This document shows, piece by piece, positions 2,361-41,962 of a stretch of DNA of 47,897 bases. Source of the stretch: Sorangiineae bacterium NIC37A_2 (lineage in GTDB: Bacteria > Myxococcota_A > Polyangia > Polyangiales > Polyangiaceae). Under the pieces are notes generated by a model, which ran no database searches, was not told the origin of the DNA, and saw only the letters and a list, made by a program, of their open reading frames with translations. The translations under genes were made by a program, and so were the position numbers. The DNA is taken from positions 1 to 47,897 of the forward strand of contig NASX01000038.1 in NCBI GenBank assembly GCA_002085155.1. The letters run 5' to 3'. Each line of letters starts with the position of its first letter. Position 1 is the first letter of the stretch.

Positions 2361-2388
2361 AAGGAGCGCTCAGAGAGCCTCTGCTCGT

Positions 2389-3473: not shown

Positions 3474-3520
3474 TGGATGGTCAGATGCGGCGAGGCACAG
3501 CTGCGCTCGCCGCGATTGGC

Positions 3521-4807: not shown

Positions 4808-4826
4808 TTGATTCTCCGTGATGAGG

Positions 4827-5726
4827 TCACACTGGCTGAGAGCCTTCCGCCTCAGGCAGCCGACACCGCGAGGAGTTTGACTGTGTGCGATTCCGTTCGG
4901 CAGGTGTGCTCTTCCCCCGCCCCCGCCTGGAGCATTTTATCTTCGGTGAAACGCGAAGGCACAGTCGTCGCGCCGAGTGCGCGCGCCTTAGGCCACTTTG
5001 CCCTGAGAGAGCGCTACCACACAGGGAGACATCTCGGAGAAGAATCTTCTCGGAATCGGTCGCGCGGAGCGCTCGCTCGAACCGGAGCAGCGCCCACTCC
5101 CCCTGGCGCGCCTCTTGGACAAACCGGAGCGAGAGCTTCTCGTAGGTCGCTCGGAGCGCGGGAACCTGTAGGGGAGTAAAGCCGCTCAGAAGCAACGTGG
5201 CAGAAGGAAGCATGGCCTTCGCGATGAACGGTGCGAGCTCGGTGAGAGGCCCTTCGAGAATGTTCGCGACGATGAGATCGAAGCGCGCCCCCCACGCGTC
5301 CGGCAGCTGGTTTGTGAGTTCTATCTCTGTTTCATGACCGTCGAGGGCGCACTGCCGCGCGGCCCAAGCGAGCGCCTTCGGATCGATGTCCGTTCCGACG
5401 ACAAAAGGAACGCCGCGGGCGCGAGCGATGCGCGCGAGGATGCCGGTCCCGGTGCCGACGTCGAGGACTGCGGCGGGACGCTTCTGCCCGAGCATCATGT
5501 CGAGCGCGCCTGCGCAGAGTCGGGTCGTTGGATGAGACCCGTCTCCAAAGACGAAGCCGCCCGCGAGCTCAGCGGGGAGCTCAGGGAAGGCGAGCACGCC
5601 CGCGCCGACCTGCGGTGGCGCTTCGGTCGCGCTGTAAAGGACGACCCGCGGGGCGATGGAACGGGGAGGCACTGCGCGCGGGCTACCTAGCGTTTTTTTC
5701 AGAGTGTAGCGAGGCAAGGGGCCCAT
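4827..5726 (-). CDS. PrmA-like class I SAM-dependent methyltransferase with an unusual C-terminal tail
   Basis: 299 residues from the chosen ATG, which has GGAG 7 nt upstream; two further in-frame ATGs upstream would overlap the divergent regulator gene. The core matches ribosomal protein L11 methyltransferase: FGDGSHPTT, the SAM-binding loop DVGTGTG, the acidic VVGTDIDP strand end, and FDLIVANILEGPL, equivalent to the NANIL/NPPY-type motif. The N-terminal L11-binding domain of true PrmA is largely missing, so the substrate may differ. After WALLRFER, where PrmA proteins normally end, about 80 further residues rich in Arg and Ser follow, looking like read-through into non-coding DNA or the result of a lost stop. 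The methyltransferase assignment is firm; L11 as substrate is not. Confidence 0.78.
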   Translation of the reverse strand: MGPLPRYTLKKTLGSPRAVPPRSIAPRVVLYSATEAPPQVGAGVLAFPELPAELAGGFVFGDGSHPTTRLCAGALDMMLGQKRPAAVLDVGTGTGILARIARARGVPFVVGTDIDPKALAWAARQCALDGHETEIELTNQLPDAWGARFDLIVANILEGPLTELAPFIAKAMLPSATLLLSGFTPLQVPALRATYEKLSLRFVQEARQGEWALLRFERALRATDSEKILLRDVSLCGSALSGQSGLRRAHSARRLCLRVSPKIKCSRRGRGKSTPAERNRTQSNSSRCRLPEAEGSQPV

Positions 5727-5841
5727 GTGCGCTCCGAGATGACCCCGGAAAGGAGAGCACATGCCGCATTCCGAGGGGCGCTTCGCTTTCACGAGGCCAG
5801 AAGCTGTGCGACAATTTTATGTTCGACTGGGGAGAGAAGTG

Positions 5842-6933
5842 ATGGCGGAGCGGGGGCAGAGCTTGCGGGATCGGACCAAGGAGGCGACGCGGGCTCGGCT
5901 TGTCGCCGCTGCGCGTCGCGCCTTTGCGGAGGAGGGCTACGAGGACGTCTCCCTCGCTCGGGTTTGTAGGCTTGCCCAGACGAATCGGGTCGCTCTGGCT
6001 CACCACTTCCCAGGAGGGAAAGAAGAGCTGCTCGAGGCGGTCGCGGATGAAGCTCTCGCCGAGCTCGAAGATCGGATCAGCGCGGCCGACAGTAGCGCCG
6101 ACGGCTGGACGGGGGTGCGAGCTGCTTGTGATGCATACTTGGACGCTTGGGCTGACCCGGCGCTGCGGACTCTTCTCTTTCGCACCGGGCCTCGGGCGCT
6201 CGACGCAGAGTTCATCAGCCTCCATCAAAGGTCCAAAGAGCCGTTTGTGACTCGGCTGGTCCGCGAATGGATCGAGCGGGGGCTCTTGCGGCCGCGTCCT
6301 GTCGTGATTCTTTCTCGATTGTTCGAGGCGATGTTCGAAGAGGCGGGGACACAGATCGTCAGCGCCTCTGATCGCGAGCACACCCGAGCAGAGCTCAATC
6401 GGCTGCTCGCCGAGTGGCTCGAGGGGCTCCGGCGAAAGCCCGGTGAGCTACCCAATGTGCTGGCGACTGACCGTGTAGTGCTCGAGCCTTGGGCCCTCGG
6501 AGACATCCCGGAGCTCGCGGAGCTGTGCGTCGAGAGCGGCCTCGGACAAGTCCTCTTCGCCTCCCAAGCTCGACATTCTGAGCCGCTCCGGCGCCTCGTG
6601 TTCGAGAGCGAGCGTCGCTTCGCCCAGGGAGAGCTTGGGATGTTTGTGGCTCGAGACGGAAGCGGTAGGCCCGTAGGAGTGGTGGGACTTGTGCCACCGC
6701 GGCCGGGAGAGGCCGAGGAACTCGTGGTGGCCGTGGACCGTAGTTTTCAAGGACGAGGCTACGGTCAGGAGATCGCCGAGGCGGCGCTCCGGGAAGGTCG
6801 CGTGCGCGGGTGCAAGCAGGTGCGCGCGACGACCGACGAAACCAATGCGCCATTTGTGCACTTGCTCGAGAACCTGGGCTTCGTGCGAGCGGAGCCGAGC
6901 GGAAGCGCCTTTTTATACGTGCGGGCACAATAG
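5842..6933 (+). CDS. TetR-family regulator fused to a GNAT acetyltransferase
   Basis: 363 residues from the ATG preceded by GGGGAGAG; an earlier ATG at 5761 is possible but has no good ribosome site and adds unrelated sequence. Residues 14-60 form a TetR helix-turn-helix (RLVAAARRAFAEEGYEDVSL, then VALAHHFPGGKEEL). Residues 75-195 are helical, like a TetR ligand/dimer domain. From about 205 a complete GNAT fold begins with DRVVLEPWALGDIPEL; the acetyl-CoA motif A is at 300-308 (R-x-x-Q-G-R-G-Y-G) and ENLGFVRAE near the end is the usual GNAT beta6-beta7 region. Both modules look intact, so this is a true fusion, not a pseudogene. It is divergent from the PrmA-like gene with a roughly 115-bp shared control region. 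The substrate of the acetyltransferase and the ligand of the TetR part are unknown. Confidence 0.88.
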   Translation: MAERGQSLRDRTKEATRARLVAAARRAFAEEGYEDVSLARVCRLAQTNRVALAHHFPGGKEELLEAVADEALAELEDRISAADSSADGWTGVRAACDAYLDAWADPALRTLLFRTGPRALDAEFISLHQRSKEPFVTRLVREWIERGLLRPRPVVILSRLFEAMFEEAGTQIVSASDREHTRAELNRLLAEWLEGLRRKPGELPNVLATDRVVLEPWALGDIPELAELCVESGLGQVLFASQARHSEPLRRLVFESERRFAQGELGMFVARDGSGRPVGVVGLVPPRPGEAEELVVAVDRSFQGRGYGQEIAEAALREGRVRGCKQVRATTDETNAPFVHLLENLGFVRAEPSGSAFLYVRAQ

Positions 6934-28170: not shown

Positions 28171-29562
28171 ATGGCGCGCTCGCTTCGTTCTCGGGCTCTC
28201 GGAGCCTCGCTCCTTTTCGCGAATTCGATCCTTGCGGTCGCGATTCCCGCGCGCGCCGAGCCCGGACTGGTGACGGCGCGAGCTGACGCCGAACGGCGCG
28301 CCCCTGCGCCCGCCGCATCCGGACCCGCCGAGCTCGCTCGCGGTGCGTTCGAGCGGCTCGAGGCTGAGCACGCAAGGCATCCCGAGCGACGTCCCGGCAC
28401 CAAGGTGCTCAGCCTGCGCGACGCGCTCCAGGAAGCGGTGAAGAGAGGCCCCGAGGTCCTTGTCGCGCTCGCGCCCCGCGCCTCGCTCCTCCGCGCTGAA
28501 CAAACAGCTGCGCCGACGCTGCTGCAGCCTCCGAGCCTCTCCGCACAACTCGGCCCTCGTTTCCTCGATGACCGCATCGCGCCCGAGTTCATCGTCGGCA
28601 TCTCCCAGCCCCTGTCGCTCTCGCGGCAAGGGGCGCTCCAGAAACAAGTAGCGAAAGGTGAGCTGCGTTTGCAGGAGGAGTCGCTTCGGCTCGAGAAGAT
28701 CGCCGCGGCCATGGCGGCGGGGAACGCTTGGCTTGACCTCGCGCTCACGCACAATCTCCTCGAGCTCAGGAGGGCTTCCCTCGACGAAGCAGAGAAACTC
28801 CGGCGTCTCGCTGAGACGCGGGTGCGACTCGGTCAGGCCGATCCTCTCGAGCTTGCGGTGGCGCGAGCGGAGGCGGCTCGCAGTCGCGCTCTGTTGCTTG
28901 AGGCGGAAGGAGCTCATTTTGCGGCCAGCGCGGACCTCTCGCTGGCGCTCGGTCTGGAGGCGGCTCGGGTGGAGTCCGACGGAGGCTTGCCGCCGCCTCC
29001 CCCATGGAACGAAGGAAAGCGCGCAGAAGAAGAGCGCTGGACGGAGGCGCGCCTCCTCGCGGAAGAGTCGCTCGCGGGAGCTCGCGCGAAGCTCGCCCGC
29101 GCTCAGCAATCTCCGGGTCTCTCCGTCGGCGTGCAGTACCAGCGCGAGGGTACGGGAGAACAGGTCCTGACCGGAACCCTCACCATGCCCCTCTTCGACT
29201 TCAAACCTGGGCGCTACCAGGAGGCGCTGCTCCTCGCCGAACAAGACAAGCTCAGCCAAGCAGCGAAGGGCCAGCGACAAAAGGCGAAGGTCGAGCGCGA
29301 TCGCGCCGCCCACGAAGAAGCCCATGCTCAGGTCCTGTTCGAGTTGCTCTCGAAAGAGGCGCTCCCCGCTGCGCGGCAAGCGGTAAAAATCGTGACAGCC
29401 AAATACGAGCTCGGGGAAGTCGACATCTCGCGCGTCGCGCTCCACCGTCAACAGCTCCTGACCCTCGAAGAAAACGCCGCTGTTGCGCTCGCGGCGGTCC
29501 ACCGAGCCGTCCTCGGACGCCTCAAGGCCACCGGCCTTCTGCTCGAGGAGTACTCCCTGTGA
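28171..29562 (+). CDS. TolC-family outer membrane channel of a metal RND efflux system
   Basis: 463 residues from the ATG; a TTG three codons upstream is possible. A Sec signal peptide ends at about IPARAEPG (residue 30). The mature protein has the TolC pattern of long Ala/Leu/Glu helices in two similar halves, with LSLRDALQEAVKRGPEV at the start of half 1 and ESLAGARAKLARAQQSPGLSVGVQYQ in half 2, as in the CzcC/CusC outer-membrane factors. It is first of three genes with a 4-bp GTGA overlap to the adaptor. Divergent from the two-component system with a 147-bp shared promoter region. Confidence 0.87.
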   Translation: MARSLRSRALGASLLFANSILAVAIPARAEPGLVTARADAERRAPAPAASGPAELARGAFERLEAEHARHPERRPGTKVLSLRDALQEAVKRGPEVLVALAPRASLLRAEQTAAPTLLQPPSLSAQLGPRFLDDRIAPEFIVGISQPLSLSRQGALQKQVAKGELRLQEESLRLEKIAAAMAAGNAWLDLALTHNLLELRRASLDEAEKLRRLAETRVRLGQADPLELAVARAEAARSRALLLEAEGAHFAASADLSLALGLEAARVESDGGLPPPPPWNEGKRAEEERWTEARLLAEESLAGARAKLARAQQSPGLSVGVQYQREGTGEQVLTGTLTMPLFDFKPGRYQEALLLAEQDKLSQAAKGQRQKAKVERDRAAHEEAHAQVLFELLSKEALPAARQAVKIVTAKYELGEVDISRVALHRQQLLTLEENAAVALAAVHRAVLGRLKATGLLLEEYSL

Positions 29563-30737
29563 GCTTCCGCAAAGCTCCCCTCGGCGTGGCTCTCTGTCTC
29601 GCAGCCTTCTCCTGCCGCAGCGGCCCCGCGCCGACCGAGGAAAAAGGAGACAAAACTATAAACTCTAGCCCGAAGAACGCCGAGGCGCCAAGCAGCGGAG
29701 TCCGGAGGGTGCGCGTGCACCCGGACCTCCTGAAAAACGGGCGCGTCGAGCTCGCTTTGGTGGCTCGGGCGGGCGGAGCTTCGGGGGCGCGCGCCGTTGG
29801 CGAGATTGTGCCGAGTCCGGACGGAGAGGCGCTCGTGGCAGCGCTGGTCGGAGGGCGCGTCGCGGAACTCGCGAAACATGAAGGGGATGTTGTCGCCCGC
29901 GGTGACGTACTCGCTTGGATCGAGTCTCCGGACGTCGGGATCGCGCGGGCGGATCTTCTGAAGCTCGATGCGGAAGTGGAGCTCAGTGAAAAGCGTCTTG
30001 CGCGCGCGCGAAGGCTCTCCGAGGAAAACGCCATTTCCCAGAGCGCCCTCGAGGAAACCGAAGCCGCCCTCGCGGCGGCGAGGGCGCAGCGGGCGGCGGT
30101 GCGCGCGCGGCTGAGTGCTTGGGGAGCGGAGAGGGGAGCTGGGTCCCGGGTGGCGCTGCTCGCGCCGATTGCGGGAGAAATTGTCGAGCGGAGCGCGACT
30201 CTGGGCGGGTTCGTGGAGCCGGGCCGGGCTCTCTTCCGCCTCGTTTCCCGCGATCGATTGCGCGCGCGCGTCCTGTTTCCGAGCACCTTTCGTCAGAAAC
30301 CCTCGGAGGGGGAGACCGTGACGATCCGTCGCCCTCAAACGAATTTGAGCTGTCCTGGTCAGGTCTCGACCGTCTCTCGCTCGGTCGATCCTGCGAGTCG
30401 GACTGTGACGGTGTTCTTGGAGCTCGGGTCCGAGTGTTCGGAGCTGCGCGCTCATGACCCCATTGAGGTCGCTCTCGGTCAGACGGAAGGCGCTGCTCCT
30501 TCTGTCGCGCTCGCGAGCGCGCCGAAAGACGCGGTTCTCGATCTCGAAGGCGCGCCCCATGTCTTTGTTGCAGAGGATCCTCCGGGATCATTCGTGGTGA
30601 CGCCGGTGGTGGTCGAGACCATCGTGGGAGATACGGCTTTTATCTCGGAGGGAGTCGCGCCCGGAACGCGCATCGCCGTGCGTGGGGTTCTCTTGCTCAA
30701 GGGAGAAGCTCAGAAAGACCTCCTCGGGGGCGACTGA
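29559..30737 (+). CDS. efflux RND periplasmic adaptor (membrane fusion) lipoprotein
   Basis: 392 residues from the GTG that overlaps the TolC stop; GAGGAG lies 8 nt before it, which settles the start against a longer frame running through the TolC gene. The signal VSFRKAPLGVALCLAAFSC ends in a lipobox (Cys19). The body has the lipoyl half-motifs PDGEALVAALVGGRVAELAKHEGDVVARGDVLAWIESPD and the returning ALLAPIAGEIVERSATLGGFVEPGRALFRLV, around a helical hairpin of about 65 residues, as in CzcB-type adaptors. It links the inner-membrane pump to the TolC channel. Six nt separate its stop from the pump gene. Confidence 0.9.
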   Translation: MSFRKAPLGVALCLAAFSCRSGPAPTEEKGDKTINSSPKNAEAPSSGVRRVRVHPDLLKNGRVELALVARAGGASGARAVGEIVPSPDGEALVAALVGGRVAELAKHEGDVVARGDVLAWIESPDVGIARADLLKLDAEVELSEKRLARARRLSEENAISQSALEETEAALAAARAQRAAVRARLSAWGAERGAGSRVALLAPIAGEIVERSATLGGFVEPGRALFRLVSRDRLRARVLFPSTFRQKPSEGETVTIRRPQTNLSCPGQVSTVSRSVDPASRTVTVFLELGSECSELRAHDPIEVALGQTEGAAPSVALASAPKDAVLDLEGAPHVFVAEDPPGSFVVTPVVVETIVGDTAFISEGVAPGTRIAVRGVLLLKGEAQKDLLGGD

Positions 30738-30743
30738 ACGAAG

Positions 30744-33700
30744 ATGCACCACATCGTCGAGTTCTCCCTTCGGCAGCGTTTCCTTGTCTGCGCGCTCACG
30801 GCGCTCTTGGCGCTGCTCGGCGTGCGCAGTTACCTGAGCCTGCCGATGGACGCTGTCCCGGACATCACGAGCGTCCAGGTTCAAGTTCTGACGAGAGCGC
30901 CCGGACTCTCTCCCGTCGAAGTCGAAAACCTCGTCACCCGTCCGGTGGAACGCGCTTTGGCTGGTCTCCCGGAGCTCGCGATGATGCGCTCGGTGTCCCG
31001 CTCGGCGATCAGCGGTGTGACCCTGATTTTTAGCGACGATGTCGACCTCGAACGAGCCAGGGAGCTCGTCCTGGAGAGGTTGCCCTCGGCTCGGGATGCT
31101 GTGGCTGAGTCCGCGGAGCGCCCCGAGATGGGGCCGCTGACCACGGGACTCGGCGAGGTCTATCATTTCACTCTCGACTGGCCTGGACACTCGGGCCAGG
31201 AACTCCGAGCTCTCTTCGACTGGGAGATTGTGCCCGAGCTCCTGCTTGTACCCGGTGTGGTCGAAGCGAATAGCTGGGGAGGGGACGAGCGGGAGATACA
31301 AGTCGTTGTCGCTCCGGATCGCCTGCTCAGCTTCGGTTTGACTCTCGAAGACGTCGAACGAGCGCTCCAGAGAAGCGGGCACACGGTCGGCGGGGCCGCG
31401 GTCGAGCGCGGCGAAGAGCAGGTGCTCCTGCGGCTCGATGGGCAATACAAGACTCGCCTTGATGTCGCGAACCAGGTGGTGCGAACTTCGCCGGAGGGAG
31501 CTCCTGTGCTCGTTTCGGACGTGGCGCGGGTGATCGAGGGGAAAAAGCCTAGGTTCTCGGCGGCGACGGCGGACGGCGGCGGACCGACCCAGTACGCGAT
31601 GGTGCAGATGGTCGCAGCGGGAAACGCGCGCGACGTCGTCGAGCGCGTGCGACAGCGCCTCTCCGAGCTCGAGACGCGCCTTCCGGAGGGCGTCCAGATC
31701 AAACCCTTCTACGATCGAGCGCGCTTCGTCGATCGCGTTCTCGCGACGGTCTTTCGTTCGCTCATCGAGGGCGGCCTTTTCGTCACGGTGGTCTTGTTCC
31801 TGTTCCTCGGGAACCTTCGAGCGGGGCTCGTCGTCGCCACGATGATCCCGCTCGCGATGCTCGGGGCTTTTGCGCTCATGCGCCTGTTGGGCGTCTCGGG
31901 GAACTTGATGAGCCTGGGGGCGATCGACTTCGGTCTAGTCGTGGATGGCGCTGTTGTGCTCGTCGAAGGCGCGCTCGTAGAGATGGCGCGGACGAAGGTG
32001 AGCACGGGCCACGCGCTCGTCCACGATGCGCGCAAGTTTGGGCGCTCGGTGGCGTTCGGTCTGCTCTTGGTCATCGTGGTCTACGTGCCCGTGCTCCTTC
32101 TCGAGGGAGTCGAGGGAAAAATGTTCCGGCCGATGGCGCTGACGGTGCTCTTCGCGCTCGGTACGGCGCTGATTCTGACCTTCACCTGGATCCCGGCCCT
32201 CGCTTCCCTCGTTCTGAGACCCTCAGCGGCAACGGAGCCGAGCTGGGTGACGAAGCTTCGGGAGCGTTATCGGCCGCTCTTGCGCTTCTTCGTCGCGAGG
32301 CGAGGGCTCGCGCTCGGCGTAGGAGTACTCCTCGCGGGCCTCGCTGCCGCGGCTGCGTCGCGGCTCGGTGCGGATTTCGTGCCCCGGCTCGAGGAGGGAG
32401 ATCTCGTGGTCCAGATCACGCGCCCTCCGAGCCTGTCTCTCGCGGAAGCGGAGGCGGGGACCACAGTGGTCGAGCAGACATTGCTCGCCCTGCCCGAAGT
32501 CGACCGGGTGGTGTCGCGAACCGGAAGCCCCGACGTGGCGACGGACCTCATGGGTCTTGAGCAATCGGACGTTTTCGTGCTGCTCAAGGACACGGCGGAC
32601 GGATTCTCGGCGCAGAAGCGCGAGGAGCTGATCGGACGCATGGAAGAGGCCCTGGTAGCCGCGCTCCCGGGTGCGAGCTTCGGTTTCACGCAGCCGATCG
32701 AGATGCGTATGCAAGAGCTCCTCGGGGGCATCAAGAGCGATTTTGGTATTCGTGTGTTCGGCGAAGACCTGAGTGAGCTGCGCAAGATTGCCGCGGCGGT
32801 TCTTGAGGAAACGGCCGAAGTGCGCGGCGTGACGGACCTGCGCATCGAACCCTCCGAGGGCCTGCCCCTGCTCACCGTGCGCCCTGATCCCGTGCGCGCC
32901 GCGCGTTTTGGCGTCACGCCGGATAGCCTCGAATTGACCGTAGAAGCCCTACGCTCCGGGCGCACTGTCGGGACCTTCTTTGAACAGGGGCGGCGCTTCG
33001 ACGTGGCGATTCGGCTCTCGCCCGAGAGCGCTCCTTCTCCCGAGTCGCTCAGTGAAGTTCGGATCCCGCTCGGACCCGGGCGGGACGCGCGGCTCGGCGA
33101 GGTCGCGGACCTGATCGTCGAGGACATCCCAGCTCAGCTGAGCCGCGAGCAAGGACGAAGGCGCCTCCTCATCGAAGGAAACGTGCGCGGACGGGACCTG
33201 GCTTCCTTCACGATCGAGCTCGAGCGCCGCTTGAGCAGTCTCTCCTTGCCCCCCGGCTACTTCGTGACCGTGGCGAGTCAGTACGACAACCTGAAGGCCG
33301 CGGTGCAGCGCTTCATGATCATCATCCCGCTCACCTTGCTCGCCATTGTGACGGTCTTGAACCTCGTCTTCTCGCGCTTTCGTCCAGTGGGCCTTGTCCT
33401 GCTCAACATTCCCTCCGCGCTCAGCGGGGGCATCTTCGCTCTCTACTTGCGCGATTTACCCTTCTCGATTTCGGCGATGGTGGGCCTGATCGCGGTGATG
33501 GGCGTCGCGACCATGAACGCCGTCGTGCTCCTCACAGCCATCTACGCGCGGGCGGAGGAACAGGGGCTCTTGTCAGCCCCTGCGTCCGGCGAGGGCGCGC
33601 CCGAGGGGCAAGAGAGCGCTCTCGAGTGTGTCGTGCGCGGCGCTTCCGATCGGCTGCGCCCAGTTCTGACGACGGCCGTCGTGGCATCGCTCGGCTTCGT

Positions 33701-33872
33701 GCCGATGGCCTTTGCGAATGGGACCGGCTCTGAAGTGCAGAGGCCCCTCGCGACTGTCGTCATCGGGGGCCTCTCGACTGCGACCTTCCTGACCTTGCTC
33801 GTCCTTCCGGCGCTGGCTTTGCCGAGGAAGCGATGGAAAGAGGGGAAAATCAACCTTCAGCGTCCCATGTAG
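30744..33872 (+). CDS. heavy-metal RND (HME-RND) efflux pump, CzcA-like
   Basis: 1042 residues, the normal length. The N-terminus MHHIVEFSLRQRFLVCALTALLALLGV and the PMDAVPDITSVQVQVLT segment are hallmarks of HME-RND proteins. The helix-4 signature is DFGLVVDGAVVLVEG (about 395-409), with the proton-relay Asp395, Asp401 and Glu408; this is the D-F-G-x-x-x-D-G-A-V-V form linked to divalent Zn, Co, Cd or Ni export, although the last residue is Gly where most have Asn. Twelve helices and two large periplasmic loops are present. With the upstream adaptor and TolC it forms a CzcCBA-type complex spanning the envelope. The stop overlaps the convergent FG-GAP gene by 16 nt. Confidence 0.92.
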   Translation: MHHIVEFSLRQRFLVCALTALLALLGVRSYLSLPMDAVPDITSVQVQVLTRAPGLSPVEVENLVTRPVERALAGLPELAMMRSVSRSAISGVTLIFSDDVDLERARELVLERLPSARDAVAESAERPEMGPLTTGLGEVYHFTLDWPGHSGQELRALFDWEIVPELLLVPGVVEANSWGGDEREIQVVVAPDRLLSFGLTLEDVERALQRSGHTVGGAAVERGEEQVLLRLDGQYKTRLDVANQVVRTSPEGAPVLVSDVARVIEGKKPRFSAATADGGGPTQYAMVQMVAAGNARDVVERVRQRLSELETRLPEGVQIKPFYDRARFVDRVLATVFRSLIEGGLFVTVVLFLFLGNLRAGLVVATMIPLAMLGAFALMRLLGVSGNLMSLGAIDFGLVVDGAVVLVEGALVEMARTKVSTGHALVHDARKFGRSVAFGLLLVIVVYVPVLLLEGVEGKMFRPMALTVLFALGTALILTFTWIPALASLVLRPSAATEPSWVTKLRERYRPLLRFFVARRGLALGVGVLLAGLAAAAASRLGADFVPRLEEGDLVVQITRPPSLSLAEAEAGTTVVEQTLLALPEVDRVVSRTGSPDVATDLMGLEQSDVFVLLKDTADGFSAQKREELIGRMEEALVAALPGASFGFTQPIEMRMQELLGGIKSDFGIRVFGEDLSELRKIAAAVLEETAEVRGVTDLRIEPSEGLPLLTVRPDPVRAARFGVTPDSLELTVEALRSGRTVGTFFEQGRRFDVAIRLSPESAPSPESLSEVRIPLGPGRDARLGEVADLIVEDIPAQLSREQGRRRLLIEGNVRGRDLASFTIELERRLSSLSLPPGYFVTVASQYDNLKAAVQRFMIIIPLTLLAIVTVLNLVFSRFRPVGLVLLNIPSALSGGIFALYLRDLPFSISAMVGLIAVMGVATMNAVVLLTAIYARAEEQGLLSAPASGEGAPEGQESALECVVRGASDRLRPVLTTAVVASLGFVPMAFANGTGSEVQRPLATVVIGGLSTATFLTLLVLPALALPRKRWKEGKINLQRPM

Positions 33873-36061
33873 ACGCTCAGGACGTTCGGATCCTGAGGGA
33901 GGCCGAGTCGGATGACGTCCGTGAGACCGTTGGCGTCCAGGTCGGCGAACTCGGCGTTGCGGAATGAGCGTGTCGCCCTGCAACTGAAAGCGAGTTGACT
34001 GTCTCCCAAGAGCACAAACTCATTGATGATGAGGTCCTGGTGGCCATCCCGGTCGAGGTCGAAAGACCTAACCGACGGATAACCGTTTACGGAAATGAGA
34101 GGCGCTGTCGATGCGAAGAACCCCTGCTGAAGTCCTATAGCAAGATCGATCTTCGAGGTCCCCGGTGTGCGTGAATCGGAGGGGCCCGAGACCGTCTCGC
34201 TGACGATCAGCGCATCGAGCAACCTGTCGCCGTTCAAGTCACCGGCCCAAACCACGTGCATGTCGGAAACTTGCTCGGGGGCGTCGAGGGTTCCGTCCCC
34301 GTGTCCCAGGTGCACAAAGAGGCCGCTTGGCCCTGAGGTATGGAGATCCAGGGTCCCGTCCCCGTCCACGTCAAAGAAGCCAAAGTGCTGTGTGGCTTGG
34401 AGCGGCGCCGCCTCAACCGGCGAGAAGAATGTCCCGTCGCCGGAGCCGAGCAGGATCTGGAACCTGACCTCCTCGTGATCGCCGAAGAGGATCAGGCCGA
34501 GATCGACTGTGCCGTTGCCGTCGAGATCGCCCGAGATGAAGCGGAGCGGGTCGGAGTCGAGCCCGTGCTCGATGCGCCGATACCCTCCCTCCGGCTGGGT
34601 GACGAGAGTTGTTAGGGTAGGGCTACTCGCCGTTCCGGTCACCGTGACCAGGTCGAGCTGAGAGTCTCCGTTGAGATCGAGGGCCTCGACCATCCGGGGT
34701 TCAGCGCCGACTTCATATTCGACGCCAGGGTCGAACGTTCCATCTCCCGCGCCGTCGCGCACAATGATGGTATTGTTTGTTGTCGGGATGACGAGGTCGG
34801 GGAGGCTGTCTCCGTTCAGATCTGCGACAGCAAAGCGTTCGAGCCGAGCTGGGATGTTGGTCACCCTCTCGGCGCTCGCGCCCGAGGAGATACCCTTGCC
34901 CCAGGCAATATACGCGCTTTCGTCCGAGGCGATCGCCAGATCGAGAGCGTCGTCGCCGTTCCAGTCCGCGAGGGAGATGGGGTATCCGTCATTGAGGAGG
35001 AGCGGAGGGGTAAGCCAGGAGTCGAGGAGGCCGTCGCGATTGGTGTCGATGGGGAGTTTCCTGGGAGGCGGACTGTCCTCCCAAACTGAGGCCTTGAATG
35101 TCCCATCACCGTTCCCCAGCGCCACGCCGACTCGGGTCACGGACTGAGAATCGCCGTTGTCGCTCATGACGAGGTCTAAGACGCCGTCGTCGTCGAAGTC
35201 GCCGAAGGTCTCAAGAAAAACCGGTCCCGAATCGAACTGGGCCGAGGCCTCGAAGTCTTCGTTCCCGAGCGCGAGGAAAATCTCCACGCCGCCACGAGAA
35301 CTCCCCAGCGCGAGGTCGGGACGCCCGTCGGCGTTCCAGTCGCCGACCACAACGCTCGGCGCCGCGAGGGCCGTTTGCCAAACTTCTCCTTCGCGGAAGG
35401 ATCCATCTCCGTTTCCCCAGAAAGCTTGAAACGTTCGCTCTCCGACAATGATGAGATCGGTGAGGCTGTCTTGGTTCAGATCGGCAGGTTTGACTCTGAG
35501 GGCCTCCGCCGCGGGTTCGTAGGTTGTGTGGACGGTGAACCCGCCGAGGCCGTCTCCTATGAGAACCATGAAAACATTGGGGTCCGAGCTCGAGACCACC
35601 AGGTCCGGCAGTCCGTCGCTGTTGATGCGAGTTGCTTGAATGTCGGTAAGAAGAGGCAGATCGAGCGCAGTTTCGATGGGGGCGCCAAAGTATCCGCGAG
35701 TGTCCTGGAAAATTGCTCTGATTTTCCTCCGTTCGGCGACGATCCAGTCGAGGCGGCGATCATTGTTGAGGTCTGCTGCCCGATGTGTGACGTGCTCGCT
35801 GAGGTGAGGCTCGGTCCAGACGAGGGGTTGTCCGGGAATGCGCAGCTCGCAGGGACGCTCCGGGGGATTGACGGCGCGCCCCCCTGTTCCTTCCGAGTAG
35901 CTGGACGGGGTCCCTCCTGCGGCTACATTTCCACCTGAGGCCTCTTCTTTCGCCCGGCGGTCGCCGACAACAACCGGGCCGCAAGCGGACGTGGCGAGAG
36001 TAACGGCAAGGAGCCTGGTTCGGAGTGAATTGTGTCCTGAGGAGGTGCGCGAAGAGCTCAT
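33857..36061 (-). CDS. FG-GAP/VCBS-repeat lipoprotein, last gene of the ECF sigma operon
   Basis: 734 residues from the ATG at 36061, which overlaps the stop of the preceding gene (ATGA). MSSSRTSSGHNSLRTRLLAVTLATSAC is a lipoprotein signal. A short tether containing GGNVAAGG and GTGGRA follows. The rest is some twelve FG-GAP/VCBS repeats of about 50 residues, with the calcium-binding pattern D-x-N/D-x-D-G-x-x-D seen in DLNNDRRLDWIV, DLNQDSLTDLII, DWNADGRPDLAL, DFDDDGVLDLVM, DLNGDSLPDLVI, DVDGDGTLDLHT and more. It should fold as one or two seven-bladed propellers on the cell surface, binding Ca2+ and perhaps glycans or proteins. The operon context suggests it is an output or sensor partner of the sigma system. 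Confidence 0.88.
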   Translation of the reverse strand: MSSSRTSSGHNSLRTRLLAVTLATSACGPVVVGDRRAKEEASGGNVAAGGTPSSYSEGTGGRAVNPPERPCELRIPGQPLVWTEPHLSEHVTHRAADLNNDRRLDWIVAERRKIRAIFQDTRGYFGAPIETALDLPLLTDIQATRINSDGLPDLVVSSSDPNVFMVLIGDGLGGFTVHTTYEPAAEALRVKPADLNQDSLTDLIIVGERTFQAFWGNGDGSFREGEVWQTALAAPSVVVGDWNADGRPDLALGSSRGGVEIFLALGNEDFEASAQFDSGPVFLETFGDFDDDGVLDLVMSDNGDSQSVTRVGVALGNGDGTFKASVWEDSPPPRKLPIDTNRDGLLDSWLTPPLLLNDGYPISLADWNGDDALDLAIASDESAYIAWGKGISSGASAERVTNIPARLERFAVADLNGDSLPDLVIPTTNNTIIVRDGAGDGTFDPGVEYEVGAEPRMVEALDLNGDSQLDLVTVTGTASSPTLTTLVTQPEGGYRRIEHGLDSDPLRFISGDLDGNGTVDLGLILFGDHEEVRFQILLGSGDGTFFSPVEAAPLQATQHFGFFDVDGDGTLDLHTSGPSGLFVHLGHGDGTLDAPEQVSDMHVVWAGDLNGDRLLDALIVSETVSGPSDSRTPGTSKIDLAIGLQQGFFASTAPLISVNGYPSVRSFDLDRDGHQDLIINEFVLLGDSQLAFSCRATRSFRNAEFADLDANGLTDVIRLGLPQDPNVLSVYMGR

Positions 36062-36999
36062 CGTGTGGGCGTGGGGCCTCGAACACAGCTGTTGTTGAGT
36101 CGAGCGGCGTACACGTTCGCGGCGGGGGAGTCCTCGGGGACGAGGGCTTGAGCTTCCGCCTGACGACCTAAGCCGCACAGGGCGAGAACTTTGATGATCC
36201 TGCGCTCGAGCAGAAGACTGGCTTCAGAGGCTCCGCGTTCGAGAGTGTCGATGAGACGAAGCGCGCGGGACGGATCGCCGTCTTGCAACGCTCTTTGTGC
36301 GGCGTGGAGCTGCTCGAGCTCACGAGTGAGTGAATGATGAACGGTGCCGATGGTCGCTGAGCGTGACGCGGGCTCGGCCTCCGCAGAGGTCGTCTTTTCG
36401 CCTGCGAGTTCCCGGGAGACGGAAGTCTTCCGAGCGGGGACGGCAGCGGTCCGGGCGGCTGACGACGCATCGGAGGAGATAGGGGAGTCGGGAGTCTCCA
36501 CGTTGGTGGCAGGTGGCTGCTCGCTGTCGCTCGTGTCCCGCTCCGTAGGACCAGGGGCAGCTCCAGTCTCTGGCGTCGGTGGTTCGGCTGTCCGAGGCAG
36601 CTCGACCGCAGAGCTCTCGGACCGGAGCTCCGAGACCACACGGGGCCCGACCCAGACGGAACCGGCGACCGCCACGGCGACTCCAATGACCTTGATCGGT
36701 GCCAGACTGACCCAAGGTGTGAGCGAGACGCTCGATGCTGGCTGCGTCAAGGCGCTCTGGTTCACGACAGAGGTGGTGAGCTCCGCTCCTGTGGGCACGG
36801 GGATGACGTTTGGGTCGGGAACCGGAGGCACGTCGATAGCGGGCAGGCCTGTTACGGCGACCGCGGCGATCCGAGCTTCGATCGCGGCGCGCATGCGCAC
36901 AGGATCGGGGGTTCCGGGGGCGACGGCCCGCCGAGCGCTGTGCAATACCAGACGCTCTAGCTGGTCGAGGTCCTGTTCGCTGGTAGCTCGATCGCTCAT
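36058..36999 (-). CDS. membrane protein, putative anti-sigma factor with periplasmic helical tail
   Basis: 313 residues, overlapping both neighbours by 4 nt. Residues 1-50 are a charged cytosolic segment (SEQDLDQLERLVLHSARRA, then RMRAAIEARI). One transmembrane helix is seen at about 98-118 (IKVIGVAVAVAGSVWVGPRVV). A Pro/Ser/Thr/Glu-rich linker (130-205) precedes a helical, TPR-like end with LEQLHAAQRALQDGDPSRALRLIDTLE. No HxxxCxxC zinc motif is present, so it is not a ZAS-type anti-sigma. Position directly after an ECF sigma gene and the one-helix topology support a membrane-bound anti-sigma role; the sequence alone does not prove it. Confidence 0.68.
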   Translation of the reverse strand: MSDRATSEQDLDQLERLVLHSARRAVAPGTPDPVRMRAAIEARIAAVAVTGLPAIDVPPVPDPNVIPVPTGAELTTSVVNQSALTQPASSVSLTPWVSLAPIKVIGVAVAVAGSVWVGPRVVSELRSESSAVELPRTAEPPTPETGAAPGPTERDTSDSEQPPATNVETPDSPISSDASSAARTAAVPARKTSVSRELAGEKTTSAEAEPASRSATIGTVHHSLTRELEQLHAAQRALQDGDPSRALRLIDTLERGASEASLLLERRIIKVLALCGLGRQAEAQALVPEDSPAANVYAARLNNSCVRGPTPTR

Positions 37000-37598
37000 A
37001 GGGAGGCCCTCCGGGTTGAGACTGCGCGCTCAAGCGCGCTGCGGAACTCGCCGCGTGCGGCTCGCACGCGGGAATACAAAGTGTTCACGGAAACGCCGAG
37101 GAGCTCTGCGACCTCCTGGACTGGCCGATTCTCAACGACACAAAGGACGAAAGCGTCTCGCTTGACCTCGCTCAGGCTTTGACAGAACTGCTGCACGAAG
37201 GCGGCCGCCCGTTCTCCAACCAGGCGTTCGTGAGGATCAGCGGAGAGGTCTCGCTCTTCCCCCGAGAGGGGGTCATGCATCCGGAGCCGCTGCTTGCGCC
37301 TATGGTTTTGGGCGACGCGAAAGGTGACAGCGTAGATCCACGTCGCGAGCGTCGAGCGCCCCTCGAATTCGGGGAGCTTGTTATGGACGATGACGAAGAC
37401 GTCTTGGGTCGCGTCCTCGACGAAGGCGTCGCTGACGCCGAGGGAGCGGAGCGTCCTTGAGACCCTCGGGAAGTGTTCGCGGAAGACCTCGTCGAAGTCA
37501 GGGACCCCTCGCCCTATCGGGCCTGTCCCGGACGCGGGAGTCGTCGGGGCGCTCCGGTCCGGGGGCGGGATCTTGGGAGGGGAGGCGGCAGGAATCAC
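36996..37598 (-). CDS. ECF-type RNA polymerase sigma factor
   Basis: 200 residues from a GTG overlapping the preceding stop (GTGA). After a 30-residue Pro-rich leader, region 2 covers about 33-105 (FDEVFREHFPRVSRTLRSLG, DATQDVFVIVHNKL, STLATWIYAVTFRVAQNHRR) and region 4 about 130-185 (SEVKRDAFVLCVVENRPVQEVAELLGVSVNTLYSRVRAAR). No region 3 is present, as expected for ECF factors. Its stop overlaps the start of the one-helix membrane protein, the usual sigma/anti-sigma coupling. I found no clear ECF-type autoregulated promoter before the operon. Confidence 0.93.
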   Translation of the reverse strand: MIPAASPPKIPPPDRSAPTTPASGTGPIGRGVPDFDEVFREHFPRVSRTLRSLGVSDAFVEDATQDVFVIVHNKLPEFEGRSTLATWIYAVTFRVAQNHRRKQRLRMHDPLSGEERDLSADPHERLVGERAAAFVQQFCQSLSEVKRDAFVLCVVENRPVQEVAELLGVSVNTLYSRVRAARGEFRSALERAVSTRRASL

Positions 37599-38704
37599 GG
37601 CGTGATCGTGAGTGTCTCGAAACCCGAAATTTCTTTAAAAAAGTAGAGGAGACCCAGGGCGGCGGCCCCCCCTGCGTTCGGGCTGTGGACCACGCCCCCG
37701 TCCGAGAGGATAAACCGGTCGGCGACCAAAGGTACGGCCCCTCCGATGGCCCCGAAGAGGTGGATGCGAGCGCCGATTTCCAGGTAGGCCTCCAGATTCG
37801 CAGTGAGGCCGAAATAGAATCCGGTTCCCCCGTGGGGTGGGCGGCTGGCAGGAGGGCTCTCCTCCTCGCCGTGAAGGCCCCCGACCTGCATTCGCAGGCA
37901 GGGGCCTATCCGGAGCGGGCCGAGGCGGGTCTCACGACAGGCTCCGAGAGCGCCCCCGACCCAGTTCATGGCGACGGGGTTCTCCCCGGAACCGAGCTCG
38001 TAGACGGAGCTCGGGATGAAGTTGACCCGGGCGTCGACACGCACTCGCTCGAAGGTCCGGCCCGCCATCAAGACGACTCCGAACGCTTCCTTCGGCAGCA
38101 GTCCTGAGGAAATCTCCGCCATCGCCCCGACGAACCAAACCTGCTCGCTCGCCTCATGATCAGGACGAGGGATCTCGGCTCCGACGGGAGCAACAGGGCG
38201 GGGTGAAGTTGCTCCCTGTACGCCTGGGGTAGTTCCGGGAGCCGAGGCGGCCTCCCGCGTAGGTTCAGGGGCAGGTGTGGAAGGCGCTTCGGGGCTGCCG
38301 AGCGCGAGAGCGACGGCGAGGGCCGAAAACTTCGCGGCTTCCTCACAGTTCGCAAATGAAACGCTGCGTCCGCTCGTCTCGCCTCCCTCTGTGATACCAA
38401 CATGGGCCAAAAATCCGCCTTCTGTCGGCTCGACGACAATGACGACGGACAGCTCAGACCCCTCGGCGATCGGACGGCCGAGGGCCGCTTGGATTTGTTC
38501 CACGAGCTCGCCCCTCGTAGGGCACTCGGGAGGAGCGCTCCATTTGAGCCAAGGGCCTCCCGTTTCGCTCGTCCCTTTCTCGAATGCTGGGGCGGATGGA
38601 GCCTCTTGTGCCCTTGCTGGTTCCGCGAGCGTGCCGTTCGCTCCTACGAACAGGGCCGCAGCGAAGGCCGCGAACCGAATCCATCCTCCCGAGCGCAAAA
38701 CCAC
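37595..38704 (-). CDS. exported outer-membrane-like protein, first gene of the ECF sigma operon
   Basis: 369 residues from a GTG; the signal peptide ends about AEPARAQEAP (residue 33). Residues 50-135 form a compact domain starting WSAPPECPTRGELVEQIQAALGR and ending FANCEEAAKFSALAVALALG, with one Cys at each end that may pair. A Pro/Ala/Thr linker (137-180) leads to a C-terminal part with beta-barrel character (VWFVGAMAEISSGLLP, VGGALGACRETRLGPLRIGPCLRMQ) ending in FFKEISGFETLTITP. This layout recurs next to sigma genes in myxobacteria as I remember it; no function is known. Its stop overlaps the sigma start, so expression is coupled. No strong ribosome site is visible. Confidence 0.75.
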   Translation of the reverse strand: MVLRSGGWIRFAAFAAALFVGANGTLAEPARAQEAPSAPAFEKGTSETGGPWLKWSAPPECPTRGELVEQIQAALGRPIAEGSELSVVIVVEPTEGGFLAHVGITEGGETSGRSVSFANCEEAAKFSALAVALALGSPEAPSTPAPEPTREAASAPGTTPGVQGATSPRPVAPVGAEIPRPDHEASEQVWFVGAMAEISSGLLPKEAFGVVLMAGRTFERVRVDARVNFIPSSVYELGSGENPVAMNWVGGALGACRETRLGPLRIGPCLRMQVGGLHGEEESPPASRPPHGGTGFYFGLTANLEAYLEIGARIHLFGAIGGAVPLVADRFILSDGGVVHSPNAGGAAALGLLYFFKEISGFETLTITP

Positions 38705-38891
38705 TTGAGGCCTGCTTACCTTGGCTGTGGGCCCTCTGAGAAGCAGGAATCTCGTTTCGGGCTTTCAGTGCCGTGTCGTGGAGCTTCGAACGCCGAGCCC
38801 CCTGCGCGGGATTCATGAGGCTCTCCTTCGTTCGCGAAGAACGAAGGGGCTATCTTGACGAAGAGCGATTGAGCAGGCGTACTGTGCCGAG

Positions 38892-40478
38892 ATGGTGGGG
38901 GGAGGACGCGCTCGTCTGGGGACCAGAAGGCCAGGTAGGAGGCTCAAGGTTCCTCGATGCGTGGTGCGCTCTCTCCTCTTCGCTCCGCTCTTGGCCCTCG
39001 GCGGATGCGACGCATCCACGCAGCCGTCCTCGAGAGAGCCGGAGCCCGGCGCGGGCTCTCATCGAACGATCGCATTTGCGGGTGTCGACAGCCTGACGAT
39101 CGTTAGCTTTGACGACCCTGAGAATCCTCGCCCGTTCGAGCTTTTCGCTCCGGGGATGGGCTACCGTCGCTTGCGGGTGGAGTGGAGCTTGGACGGTCGG
39201 GGTCTGACTGTGGTCTCCAGGACCGAGGATCTGTCGTTGAATGAGGGCTTCTTGTTCTCCTCCGAGAACTGGTCCGCGCCCCGGAGAGCTGTCTCCGATG
39301 GAATCTTTTCTTTGCTCTGGGTGGACGCGGATCGATATATCGCGGTGGGCAGCGGCTGGACCCTCTCCGACCTGCGCACTGGAAGTTCTACGACGACTCC
39401 GGCTTCGCAACTCGGTGTGACACAGTGGCCAGCTGATGGTGGCTACTCCTACCTGATTCGCTCTGACGATGCCTACGACTGGATCCATCCGAAGCGCGAT
39501 CCCGTCAGGATCCGCAACGCCGACGTCTTGTCGTATTTCCCCACAAGCGAAGGCGACAGTCTTGTCCTTGTCTATCAAGGGGACAGCGACCCCGACGTGT
39601 CCGACAACAGTCACGTCTTGAGCATGCGCGCTGCGCCGCAAGCAGGATGCACGCCGCGCCAAACCCCAGGAGATTGCCTGCCCCAGCTGCGGGCAGCGAG
39701 GCGCATTCCCGAGACCTCGCTGGTTCTGATTGCGGCATGGTCTCAAGGAGCCGGCGGCGTGTGGCGTTCGATTCTGGTGCGAGGTTGGGGGGAAAACACT
39801 TCCCTCTCGACGGGCGCCGATGAGCCGGGTGTGCTGCGCGCGTCAGGGCCCGACAAGGGAGAAGAATGTGGGCCTGTTGTGGTCGAGGACCGGATCTGGA
39901 TTTTTTGTGTTCTCCCCGGGGGGGGCGCGAGCTTCGAGCGTTTTGAGACGACACAGCAGGGACTGCGGTCGGCTTATGCTGTGAACCTAGCCTCACCAGG
40001 AGCGGTCGTTCTTCGAACCGAGGAGGACAATGTGATTATTGGCCGAATCGAGGCTGAAGACGGGCCTTCCGAGAACTGGCAGGTGCTCGATTTGCGCCAT
40101 GACGTGGAAGCATGGGCCCCCGTGGATCCCAAGGGGGACGTCGTCGTGGGCATGGGGCGGCGAGGCGCGATCTTCTTGGACTCGCCCGATGACCCTCGTG
40201 AAAGGTCAACTCCCTGCGCCCCCTGTGCCTTCACAGCCGTGCAAGACATCCTCGATCCCAAGAGTCCGCGTCTCACGGGGAGCGTTCATGCCTCCTCTTC
40301 GCCGGACAAAAGGGACGTCAACTTCCCCCTGTGGCCAGCCCCCGACGGCAGCGGTGTCCTCATCCGCGAGAGCGGTACCTGGTTCTACGAGATGTTTGAC
40401 AAACCAGGCACCCGATACCCCATCGCGACGCCCCCTGAAGGCGCTCTGATCTCCCTCCCGCCCAGGTGGGGCGAGTAG
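38892..40478 (+). CDS. lipoprotein of unknown function with propeller-like repeats
   Basis: 528 codons from the ATG; the signal LLFAPLLALGGC places the lipidated Cys near residue 39. A GTG at 38961 would give a shorter, more typical signal and AGGAGG lies 19 nt before it, so the true start is uncertain. The mature part has repeated short strands with WSLDGRGLTVVS, LLWVDADRYIAVGSG, DPKGDVVVGMGRRGAIFLDS and PAPDGSGVLIRESG, resembling a degenerate PD40/WD-like propeller. Six Cys suggest disulfides (CTPRQTPGDC, CAPCAF). It is divergent from the ECF sigma operon with a 187-bp gap and may share its regulation. Confidence 0.7.
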   Translation: MVGGGRARLGTRRPGRRLKVPRCVVRSLLFAPLLALGGCDASTQPSSREPEPGAGSHRTIAFAGVDSLTIVSFDDPENPRPFELFAPGMGYRRLRVEWSLDGRGLTVVSRTEDLSLNEGFLFSSENWSAPRRAVSDGIFSLLWVDADRYIAVGSGWTLSDLRTGSSTTTPASQLGVTQWPADGGYSYLIRSDDAYDWIHPKRDPVRIRNADVLSYFPTSEGDSLVLVYQGDSDPDVSDNSHVLSMRAAPQAGCTPRQTPGDCLPQLRAARRIPETSLVLIAAWSQGAGGVWRSILVRGWGENTSLSTGADEPGVLRASGPDKGEECGPVVVEDRIWIFCVLPGGGASFERFETTQQGLRSAYAVNLASPGAVVLRTEEDNVIIGRIEAEDGPSENWQVLDLRHDVEAWAPVDPKGDVVVGMGRRGAIFLDSPDDPRERSTPCAPCAFTAVQDILDPKSPRLTGSVHASSSPDKRDVNFPLWPAPDGSGVLIRESGTWFYEMFDKPGTRYPIATPPEGALISLPPRWGE

Positions 40479-40657: not shown

Positions 40658-41962
40658 ATGAGTGGTGCCGAAGAAGAAGCGAATCCCGCGCGCGCAAGAG
40701 TAGGGGAAGATTGGCTCGCCGTGATCGTGGCGGGCCTCTTGGTGGCGATGGCGCTCCTTTGGGGCTCGAGCCTCGCCGGGTTCGAGTTGCCTCGTTACAG
40801 CTGGGCGACGGGCGGGGAGCTCGGGGAGCGTGTGCTGTCAGGAGCGAACCTGGGCCGGGTGCTGCAAGTCGGGCTCGTGCTCTATCCGGTTGCGGTTGTG
40901 GGGCTGTGGGCGCTTGGAGAGAGCATCAAGAGCGCGCTGCTCGGTTTTCCCCTCCTTTACGTCGTCGCTGTCGCCGCGCTCATCCTCGCCGGCAACGCCA
41001 CGTTCCATCAGTACGGCCTCGAGTACGTGATCTGGGCGCTCGGCTTCGGTCTCTTGCTCGGCAACACTGTCCGAATCCCAGGGTGGCTCGCCGTCGCGGC
41101 GCGATCTGAGTTTTATATCAAGATCGGCCTCGTCCTGCTCGGTTCGACCGTGCTCTGGCGCGAGATCGTGCGCGCGGGGGTTCCGGGAATTCTCCAGTCT
41201 CTGGTGGTCGTCTTCGTCGTTTGGTCTTTTTCGTTCTGGTTTGCGCGTAAGCTCGGTGTGGACGAGGAGTTTGCGGCGATCCTATCGACGGCCGTCTCGA
41301 TCTGCGGCGTTTCGGCGGCGATCGCGGCGAGCGGAGCCGTGCAAGGGGACCGCAAGAAGCTCTCTTATACGACGACCATCGTCGTCTTGTGCGCGGTCCC
41401 GATGTTGATCGTGATGCCCTGGATCGTTACAGCGTTCGGGATCGACGAGATCGTCGCGGGCGCTTGGCTCGGAGGAACCCTCGATACAACGGCTTCCGTG
41501 GCGGCCGCGGCGGAGCTCGTCGGTCCCGCCGCGACGAAAGTCGGAACCATCGTGAAGTTCTCCCAGAACCTCCTCCTCGGCCTCGCCGCCTTCTTCCTGG
41601 CGATCTGGTGGACCCTACGCAAGCGCGTCGACGTCGAACGCCCGAGCGTGCGCATCATCTGGGAGCGATTCCCGAAGTTCGTCCTCGGCTTCGTCGCCGC
41701 CTCGCTCCTCTTCTCCTTCCTGGTTTCCCCCGAAACCACGAAGCAAGTCTCGCCCGTGCTCGGCGCTCTCCGCACGGCCTGGTTCGCTCTGGCTTTCGTC
41801 TCGATCGGCCTCGAAGCTCGCGTCTCTGATCTTGTACAACTCGAAGGCGGCCGCCCCGCTCTCGCATTCCTCGGAGCCCAAGCCTTCAACGTCGTCTTCA
41901 CTCTCATCATCGCCTACCTGATGTTCGGCGGCTTGCTCCTGCCCGTGCCGGATTTGAAGTAA
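40658..41962 (+). CDS. YeiH/UPF0324-family membrane transporter (putative sulfate exporter)
   Basis: 434 residues with about 11 hydrophobic helices. Conserved family segments are LLLGNTVRIPGWL, EFYIKIGLVLLGSTVLW, STAVSICGVSAAIAASGAVQGDRKK, GAWLGGTLDTTASVAAAAELVG and KFSQNLLLGLAAFFLA, matching the Cons_hypoth698 family. Members are annotated as putative sulfate exporters; direct biochemical support is thin. The ATG has GGGAGG about 13 nt upstream. It is monocistronic, preceded by a GC-rich hairpin-forming leader (40513-40545) that may end the upstream gene. The protein is about 80 residues longer than E. coli YeiH, mainly in the N-terminal part. Confidence 0.88.
   Translation: MSGAEEEANPARARVGEDWLAVIVAGLLVAMALLWGSSLAGFELPRYSWATGGELGERVLSGANLGRVLQVGLVLYPVAVVGLWALGESIKSALLGFPLLYVVAVAALILAGNATFHQYGLEYVIWALGFGLLLGNTVRIPGWLAVAARSEFYIKIGLVLLGSTVLWREIVRAGVPGILQSLVVVFVVWSFSFWFARKLGVDEEFAAILSTAVSICGVSAAIAASGAVQGDRKKLSYTTTIVVLCAVPMLIVMPWIVTAFGIDEIVAGAWLGGTLDTTASVAAAAELVGPAATKVGTIVKFSQNLLLGLAAFFLAIWWTLRKRVDVERPSVRIIWERFPKFVLGFVAASLLFSFLVSPETTKQVSPVLGALRTAWFALAFVSIGLEARVSDLVQLEGGRPALAFLGAQAFNVVFTLIIAYLMFGGLLLPVPDLK

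Follow-up and report, generated by a model that had tools for sequence, protein, structure and literature searches.

The window (the whole 47,897-nucleotide stretch of DNA that was analysed, contig NASX01000038.1 of Sorangiineae bacterium NIC37A_2) carries four minus-strand genes, running from 38704 to 33857, for a predicted outer-membrane barrel protein (OMP), an extracytoplasmic function (ECF) sigma factor, a one-helix membrane protein and a putative lipoprotein. The conserved unit is larger than an earlier reading of these genes had noted. It is a constant sigma relay with interchangeable lipoprotein heads, most of which share a short tag beside the lipid anchor. The reading favoured here, if by no great measure, is that the operon is one of several copies of an envelope-to-ECF signalling module, in which the constant relay is joined through this tag to a lipoprotein head specific to each copy.

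The earlier sequence-only reading described a four-gene operon with GTGA, ATGA and ATGA overlaps, and both its coordinates and its overlaps are exact, with neighbours sharing 4 bp at every junction. All four reading frames were recovered by a codon-usage gene caller, which preferred a later start for gene 1, at 38503. The genes and their junctions are as follows.

37595..38704, minus strand: gene 1, outer-membrane barrel protein; GTG start, 369 aa, signal-peptide-like N-terminus, a family of relatives
37595..37598, minus strand: GTGA overlap of genes 1 and 2
36996..37598, minus strand: gene 2, ECF sigma factor; GTG start, 200 aa, Pfam Sigma70_r2 and r4_2 over the cut-off, phmmer match to solved SigE
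36996..36999, minus strand: ATGA overlap of genes 2 and 3
36058..36999, minus strand: gene 3, one-helix membrane protein, probable anti-sigma; ATG start, 313 aa, relatives fused to sigma in 8 modules
36058..36061, minus strand: ATGA overlap of genes 3 and 4
33857..36061, minus strand: gene 4, putative tagged lipoprotein head bearing FG-GAP propeller repeats; ATG start, 734 aa

A constant relay with variable heads

Three sets of stretches, A (n = 80), B (n = 40) and D (n = 40), all came from relatives and with the window make 161. Set C consists of 20 random 20-kb stretches drawn from three single-contig genomes only. Genes were called with an in-house codon-usage caller, not a published program, and were labelled with profiles built on the first 40 stretches and the window, then applied to all sets. 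Because most stretches were picked by matching either the one-helix protein or the OMP, adjacency to these two genes is in part a product of selection.

How constant is the relay? There are 148 distinct sigma genes of the module type in the 161 stretches. At 111 of them the order is OMP, sigma, one-helix protein, at 8 the OMP precedes a fused sigma/one-helix frame, and at 4 the order is sigma, one-helix protein, OMP. The others are partial (13 with OMP and sigma only, 4 with sigma and one-helix protein only, 8 with sigma alone), some of them cut by contig ends. A one-helix gene or fusion adjoins sigma in 127/148. An OMP gene also lies beside the module in all six stretches picked by one-helix matches alone (L126-L131), and no module was found in set C.

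The overlaps are another matter. A 4-bp overlap occurs at 100 of 118 sigma/one-helix junctions, whereas unlabelled same-strand neighbours within these stretches show it in 90 of 412 pairs. The complete set of three is found in 10 of 95 modules; therefore the sigma/one-helix overlap is the sole clearly conserved one. Over all stretches the count is 45/124 from barrel to sigma and 30/102 from the one-helix gene to the next. Conservation of all three overlaps was rejected. Tight coupling had been taken to imply a fixed stoichiometry, a claim that could apply at best to the sigma factor and the one-helix protein.

The constancy of the relay contrasts with the variability of its heads. Among 60 complete modules with a tagged head, similarity at E<1e-3 was found for 1770 of 1770 sigma pairs, 1142 one-helix pairs, 530 OMP pairs and 38 pairs of heads compared past the tag. 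Pfam families recognised among 65 tagged heads are the MopE-type motif (6), Dickkopf-type Cys-rich domains (4), the PD40 propeller (4), DUF7107 (3), RCC1 (2), the IgGFc-binding domain (2), FG-GAP_3 (2, one of them the window's), Kazal (1) and arabinofuranosidase (1). The window's own genome (5.0 Mb, 150 contigs) has three modules with three different tagged heads, one with FG-GAP repeats, one with PD40 and one with seven Kazal stretches.

The sequence-only reading proposed conserved gene order as a check on its pathway, and the check splits that pathway in two. The order of genes 1 to 3 holds and so do the predicted parts of the relay. The FG-GAP propeller does not hold as a constant part, and was rejected as the conserved fourth component. 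The gene 4 FG-GAP profile matched nothing among the first 40 neighbour stretches and, at E<=1e-3, three genes in all 161 (those of the window, L147 and L170; the next, in L194, has E 0.006). What recurs in fourth place is a lipoprotein recognisable by its tag and not by its body.

The module is also widely spread. Searched with single sequences, 59 genomes (that of the window among them) gave 23 with gene 3 and 19 with gene 1. In a wider search with profiles, gene 1 turned up in at least 63 of 282 genomes taken from across the phylum, seven candidates being scored for each. The window's genome has 3 OMP-type matches. Four genomes of 10-13.5 Mb have 5, 6, 8 and 19, those with 5, 8 and 19 measuring 11-13.5 Mb, and another, of 4.2 Mb, has 0. 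These are matches, not counted gene by gene, and a few of the 19 are close neighbours that may be fragments of a single gene. A sigma search of the genome's contigs gave one relative at 30%. A small tagged lipoprotein separates two tandem barrel-sigma-one-helix modules in L123 (3247-8714, minus strand). MYXO-CTERM matches above the cut-off number 2 in the window's genome compared with 0/14 control genomes, a result that agrees with the Myxococcota of the sequence-only reading.

The lipoprotein tag and gene 4

The gene right after the one-helix gene is a lipoprotein in 32/45 cases in set A, 18/28 in B and 16/24 in D. The corresponding figures for other genes of the same stretches are 90/487, 31/204 and 24/189, and for random stretches 44/312. 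The final tag rule, C.{3,8}[VIL]G, places a [VIL]-G pair 4-9 residues past the lipid Cys; it was refined on A and B and frozen before D. In A and B the rule finds 26/32 and 15/18 of the next-gene lipoproteins compared with 16/90 and 4/31 of the others. In the hold-out D it finds 13/16 compared with 1/24 others in the same stretches (p = 6e-7) and 4/44 random lipoproteins (p = 2e-7), Fisher values that overstate independence because modules cluster by genome (the 127 modules with sigma and one-helix protein fall in 50 genomes, the 65 tagged heads in 35). The sole tagged 'other' in D, in L285, itself begins a module operon.

Outside the 16 are the 8/24 next genes of set D that have no lipobox by rule. 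In five of these (L247, L248, L252, L258, L282) a Cys behind a hydrophobic stretch can be seen by eye, and a looser scan tags four. With this looser scan, in which Phe is allowed, a tagged N-terminus is found in 68/104 same-strand next genes compared with 7/316 random-stretch genes, and the count among same-strand genes falls to 6/71 one position further on. A tagged or tag-like lipoprotein can also stand elsewhere in the operon, before the barrel in L285 and before sigma in L127. In L126 (18-1955, plus strand) one frame runs from the barrel end into a tag-like lipoprotein (MACGSGEESVGSDD...), either a fusion or a stop lost in a draft genome.

35963..35983, minus strand: gene 4, predicted lipid Cys27 and tag C-GPVV-VG, residues 27-33

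Gene 4 itself begins ATSA-CGPVVVGD, in which TSAC, with Cys27 behind a hydrophobic stretch, is a putative lipobox. Thr at -3 is unusual for a lipobox. Across the 65 tagged heads C27 is nearly invariant and G33 invariant, which is not independent evidence because the heads were selected for the tag. The rest of the protein has nine FG-GAP_3 stretches (Pfam) and 13 DxDxDxxxD-like loops, the loops being in keeping with the calcium binding suggested earlier. The other FG-GAP matches differ in their placing. That of L147, in another genus of the family, is a lipoprotein downstream of a module with an opposite-strand called open reading frame (ORF) between; at 1705-5864 (minus strand) in this stretch are consecutive lipoproteins with tag-like starts, CNLPKSISFGE (the FG-GAP protein) and then CDLPKSMSFGE. 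That of L170 (2184-3833, plus strand) diverges from a barrel and sigma pair and is encoded on the other strand from the module; its start (AACEEGTPIDAGG) has no tag by rule.

Where would the heads reside? In M. xanthus, Lys at +2 is the mark of inner-membrane lipoproteins (PMC3222651). No tagged head has it (0/65, compared with 3/44 random lipoproteins), so by analogy an outer-membrane location of the heads is plausible.

Barrel, sigma factor and one-helix protein

The domains predicted in genes 1 and 3 are listed below, with the AlphaFold2 predicted local distance difference test (pLDDT) score where a block supports them.

38294..38557, minus strand: gene 1, N-terminal domain, residues 50-137, strand-helix-three strands-helix; block pLDDT mostly 88-97
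37634..38149, minus strand: gene 1, OmpA-like barrel, residues 186-357; AlphaFold2 and fold matches
36643..36699, minus strand: gene 3, predicted membrane helix, about residues 101-119; hydropathy segment from ~91, run read by eye, low AlphaFold2 confidence
36082..36363, minus strand: gene 3, C-terminal TPR-like helical bundle, residues 213-306; block pLDDT 81-98 for 221-310 and 67 for 211-220

Gene 1, described earlier as barrel-like, is predicted to be an eight-strand OmpA-like outer-membrane barrel behind a separate N-domain. The AlphaFold2 model, from 30 sequences, has a mean pLDDT of 80.9 and a predicted template modelling score of 0.59, with block pLDDT 75-98 for residues 191-357. Foldseek matches the barrel to OmpA (9fzc, E 1.5e-7). 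In structural comparison it aligns with the OprF barrel 4rlc (Z 18.2, root-mean-square deviation 1.7, 129 aligned) and with OmpA 1bxw (Z 17.0, deviation 2.4, 148 aligned), and OmpW 8qxp (Z 17.9), a designed barrel (18.4) and NspA (similar Z) score so closely that the gaps are too small to rank them. In the fold search with the whole protein, the listed matches span essentially residues 186-357. In the N-domain Cys120 and Arg113 are invariant over the 30 sequences and Cys61 is nearly so.

Genes 1 and 3 match zero Pfam or NCBIfam families up to E = 1. OmpA and OprF proteins have a C-terminal peptidoglycan-binding OmpA domain. This domain is missing from gene 1, which ends at residue 369 right behind the barrel and has no Pfam match to it. 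Neither a TonB-dependent receptor or STN domain in gene 1 nor a FecR domain in gene 3 was matched by Pfam (E<=1 for the genes themselves, E<=0.01 for 22 and 30 family members). The best match of profile A2 in the PDB was a viral capsid protein (E 0.00027) around a Pro/Ala linker, and was taken as compositional.

Gene 2 is more straightforward. Pfam finds sigma-70 regions 2 and 4_2 above the cut-off and no region 1 or 3 family, the make-up of an ECF sigma factor, and phmmer adds a match to solved SigH to that with SigE.

Gene 3 is probably the anti-sigma of gene 2. The best evidence that it is the partner of the sigma factor, a pairing already proposed, is that the two proteins form a single open frame in 8 modules of 3 genomes (G145, G255 and G260; stretches L154, L164, L168, L173, L177, L190, L194 and L267), without stops or ambiguous residues. 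Gene 3 is also placed as a membrane anti-sigma would be, in that it is kept beside sigma and has one predicted membrane helix. It was said not to be of the zinc-associated anti-sigma (ZAS) type and this is borne out, the motif HxxxCxxC being present in 0/119 one-helix ORFs. AlphaFold2 predicts two N-terminal helices moderately and the C-terminal bundle confidently. Pfam TPR models match some of the 22 members of the family (TPR_14 in 4/22), and the family has a weak profile match to BamD (E 0.0033).

The surroundings of the operon can be described briefly. Convergent with gene 4, at 28171-33872 on the plus strand, is a resistance-nodulation-division (RND)-type efflux set (outer-membrane efflux protein, HlyD-type adaptor, AcrB-type pump), and the 3' ends overlap by 16 bp (33857-33872). 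On the other side a perfect 9-bp inverted repeat at 38825-38847 (CCTTCGTTC, 5-nt loop, GAACGAAGG), read by eye, sits between gene 1 and a divergent gene at 38961, and is a possible operator. The divergent gene, lipoprotein-like and at 38961-40478, has no Pfam match at E<=0.001, and downstream of it (40658-41962, plus strand) is a Cons_hypoth698 protein (PF03601).

Proposed working, alternatives and known counterparts

How might such a module work? The relay would consist of the OmpA-like outer-membrane barrel with its N-terminal, probably periplasmic, domain; the one-helix protein, whose cytosolic N-terminus would grip the sigma factor and whose periplasmic part would end in the TPR-like bundle; and the ECF sigma factor itself. 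The lipoprotein head would couple to this relay via the short strand-like tag by its lipid anchor. On meeting a ligand or partner at the cell surface, the head might change, and this change might travel by way of the tag to the barrel with its N-domain. That domain could then alter its grip on the TPR-like end of the one-helix protein, which would be cut or reshaped so that the sigma factor is set free for its presumed target genes. This direction of signalling, from head to sigma, is proposed after precedents in FoxA/FoxR, Dma and RcsF with its outer-membrane partners, because the module unites in one operon parts that might do all three.

What if the heads are cargo and not sensors? The proposed contacts would be unchanged, but barrel and N-domain would put the lipoprotein on the surface, the tag would be an export or docking signal, and the one-helix protein would free sigma according to the display state of the cargo, a checkpoint at which the heads are sigma-controlled effectors or adhesins. 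Heads with enzyme, inhibitor and binding domains (arabinofuranosidase, Kazal, IgGFc-binding) suit this idea, as do the presence of head, barrel and sigma in a single operon and of the tag right by the lipid anchor. However, there is usually one head per relay, as the steep fall in tagged genes beyond the next position indicates, and tagged lipoproteins are rare in random stretches. Moreover, eight-strand barrels have little lumen. This is the main rival, unlikely but deserving serious attention. A plainer alternative is an ECF/anti-sigma operon of the ordinary kind, equipped with a stress sensor in the outer membrane; the lipoprotein would be a loosely attached target gene and the tag a general sorting signal of the phylum. 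A membrane anti-sigma beside an ECF sigma is the commonest ECF arrangement (PMC8999054), and a tagged neighbour is not present at every module. Nevertheless, this explanation is improbable in the face of the tag enrichment in set D, whether measured within the same stretches or against random ones, and of the tagged or tag-like heads at other operon positions in L127 and L285. In addition, the parts of PMC3222651 drawn on describe the outer-membrane lipoproteins of M. xanthus as having no noticeable conservation. Finally, gene 4 might be a chance neighbour of a three-gene system, its FG-GAP protein unrelated. FG-GAP is indeed rare near modules: the profile matches 3 genes in the 161 stretches, and FG-GAP_3 is present in 2 of the 65 tagged heads. 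However, gene 4 carries the tag common to other heads and overlaps gene 3 by 4 bp, and there is the second FG-GAP lipoprotein with a tag-like start downstream of the L147 module, so that mere chance is very hard to believe.

The signalling module is the preferred reading, and several observations weigh against it. The tag does not cover everything: in 36/104 same-strand next genes none is recognised, and the gene behind some modules is unrelated or lies on the opposite strand. The rule itself has a history. A first version, C.{2,7}[VI].[VIL]G, drawn from set A by eye, found 9/23 next-gene lipoproteins and 4/62 others in A. With a wider lipobox it found 15/33 in A and, in the set B hold-out, 3/18 compared with 1/31, and therefore is not general. 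A looser variant also failed in B (5/18 compared with 3/31, p = 0.11), and the rule was changed between the first and the second hold-out. Other points concern gene 3. Its whole model is weak (mean pLDDT 63.7), and a fold search of the PDB gave no match at E<=0.001. By hydropathy 88 of the 119 one-helix ORFs have one helix, gene 3 among them; 22 have two, 6 none and 3 three. The charge around the helix of the family (1.15 K/R before, 1.46 after) leaves the orientation unsettled. Moreover, a search for dyads and 6-mers upstream of 126 OMP genes gave no common promoter of the ECF type that would point to autoregulation.

A bolder proposal, which falls somewhat short of an even chance, is that this is a phylum-wide plug-in receptor system. 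One relay, in up to well over ten copies per genome, would read unrelated surface lipoproteins that dock via the same tag, and a new domain would become a new input by gaining the tag and a copy of the relay. If the signalling reading is right, it would explain unannotated genes in apparent Myxococcota, bacteria rich in ECF sigma factors. The tag would offer a testable rule by which surface lipoproteins could be matched with their sigma factors, and hence a means of asking which extracellular partner each sigma responds to. The module would also be the ECF counterpart of RcsF/OmpA, with a lipoprotein and a barrel carrying information across the outer membrane. Among the papers listed in the literature searches none had this composition, a comparison outside which lie the ECF reclassification groups (doi 10.1093/nar/gkaa1229), so novelty in print is not established.

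Parts of the design are familiar from known systems. Rcs feeds a phosphorelay, not a sigma factor, and RcsF is one conserved protein, whereas the module has an ECF sigma as output and variable heads with a constant tag. The likeness is that a lipoprotein and an outer-membrane barrel relay information across the outer membrane (RcsF/OmpA; PMC4942254, PMC7553776). TonB-dependent cell-surface signalling (FecA/FecR/FecI, FoxA/FoxR/FoxI and PUMA3 VreA/VreR/VreI) also combines an outer-membrane component that has an N-terminal periplasmic domain with a one-helix anti-sigma and an ECF sigma (PMC11637429, PMC2729926). In FoxA/FoxR the periplasmic domain of the outer-membrane protein can touch the anti-sigma and shield it from breakdown (PMC11637429). 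However, no TonB receptor, STN or FecR domain is recognised by sequence in the module, which has instead a small OmpA-like barrel, a presumed anti-sigma with a TPR-like end and an extra, variable lipoprotein.

The dual membrane-spanning anti-sigma factors of Bacteroides (Dma/Das) resemble the module, with a sigma-binding domain, a membrane helix, a disordered tether, a beta-barrel domain and an ECF sigma partner (PMC13088901). In Dma, however, the barrel is the C-terminus of the anti-sigma, whereas gene 3 ends in helices and the barrel is the separate gene 1; here it is the sigma factor and the one-helix protein that are fused instead, in the 8 modules. SigX-CfrX-OprF of Pseudomonas places OprF in a proposed complex that controls an ECF sigma (PMC8999054), and gene 1 has the OprF barrel among its closest structural matches. 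In contrast to gene 3, CfrX is small and soluble, and the parts of that account drawn on describe no variable lipoprotein head. Finally, MYXO-CTERM sorting likewise puts a surface tag on many Myxococcota proteins (PMC11980579). That tag is C-terminal, and the part of its source drawn on mentions no tie to sigma operons, whereas the tag of the present heads is N-terminal, by the lipid anchor.

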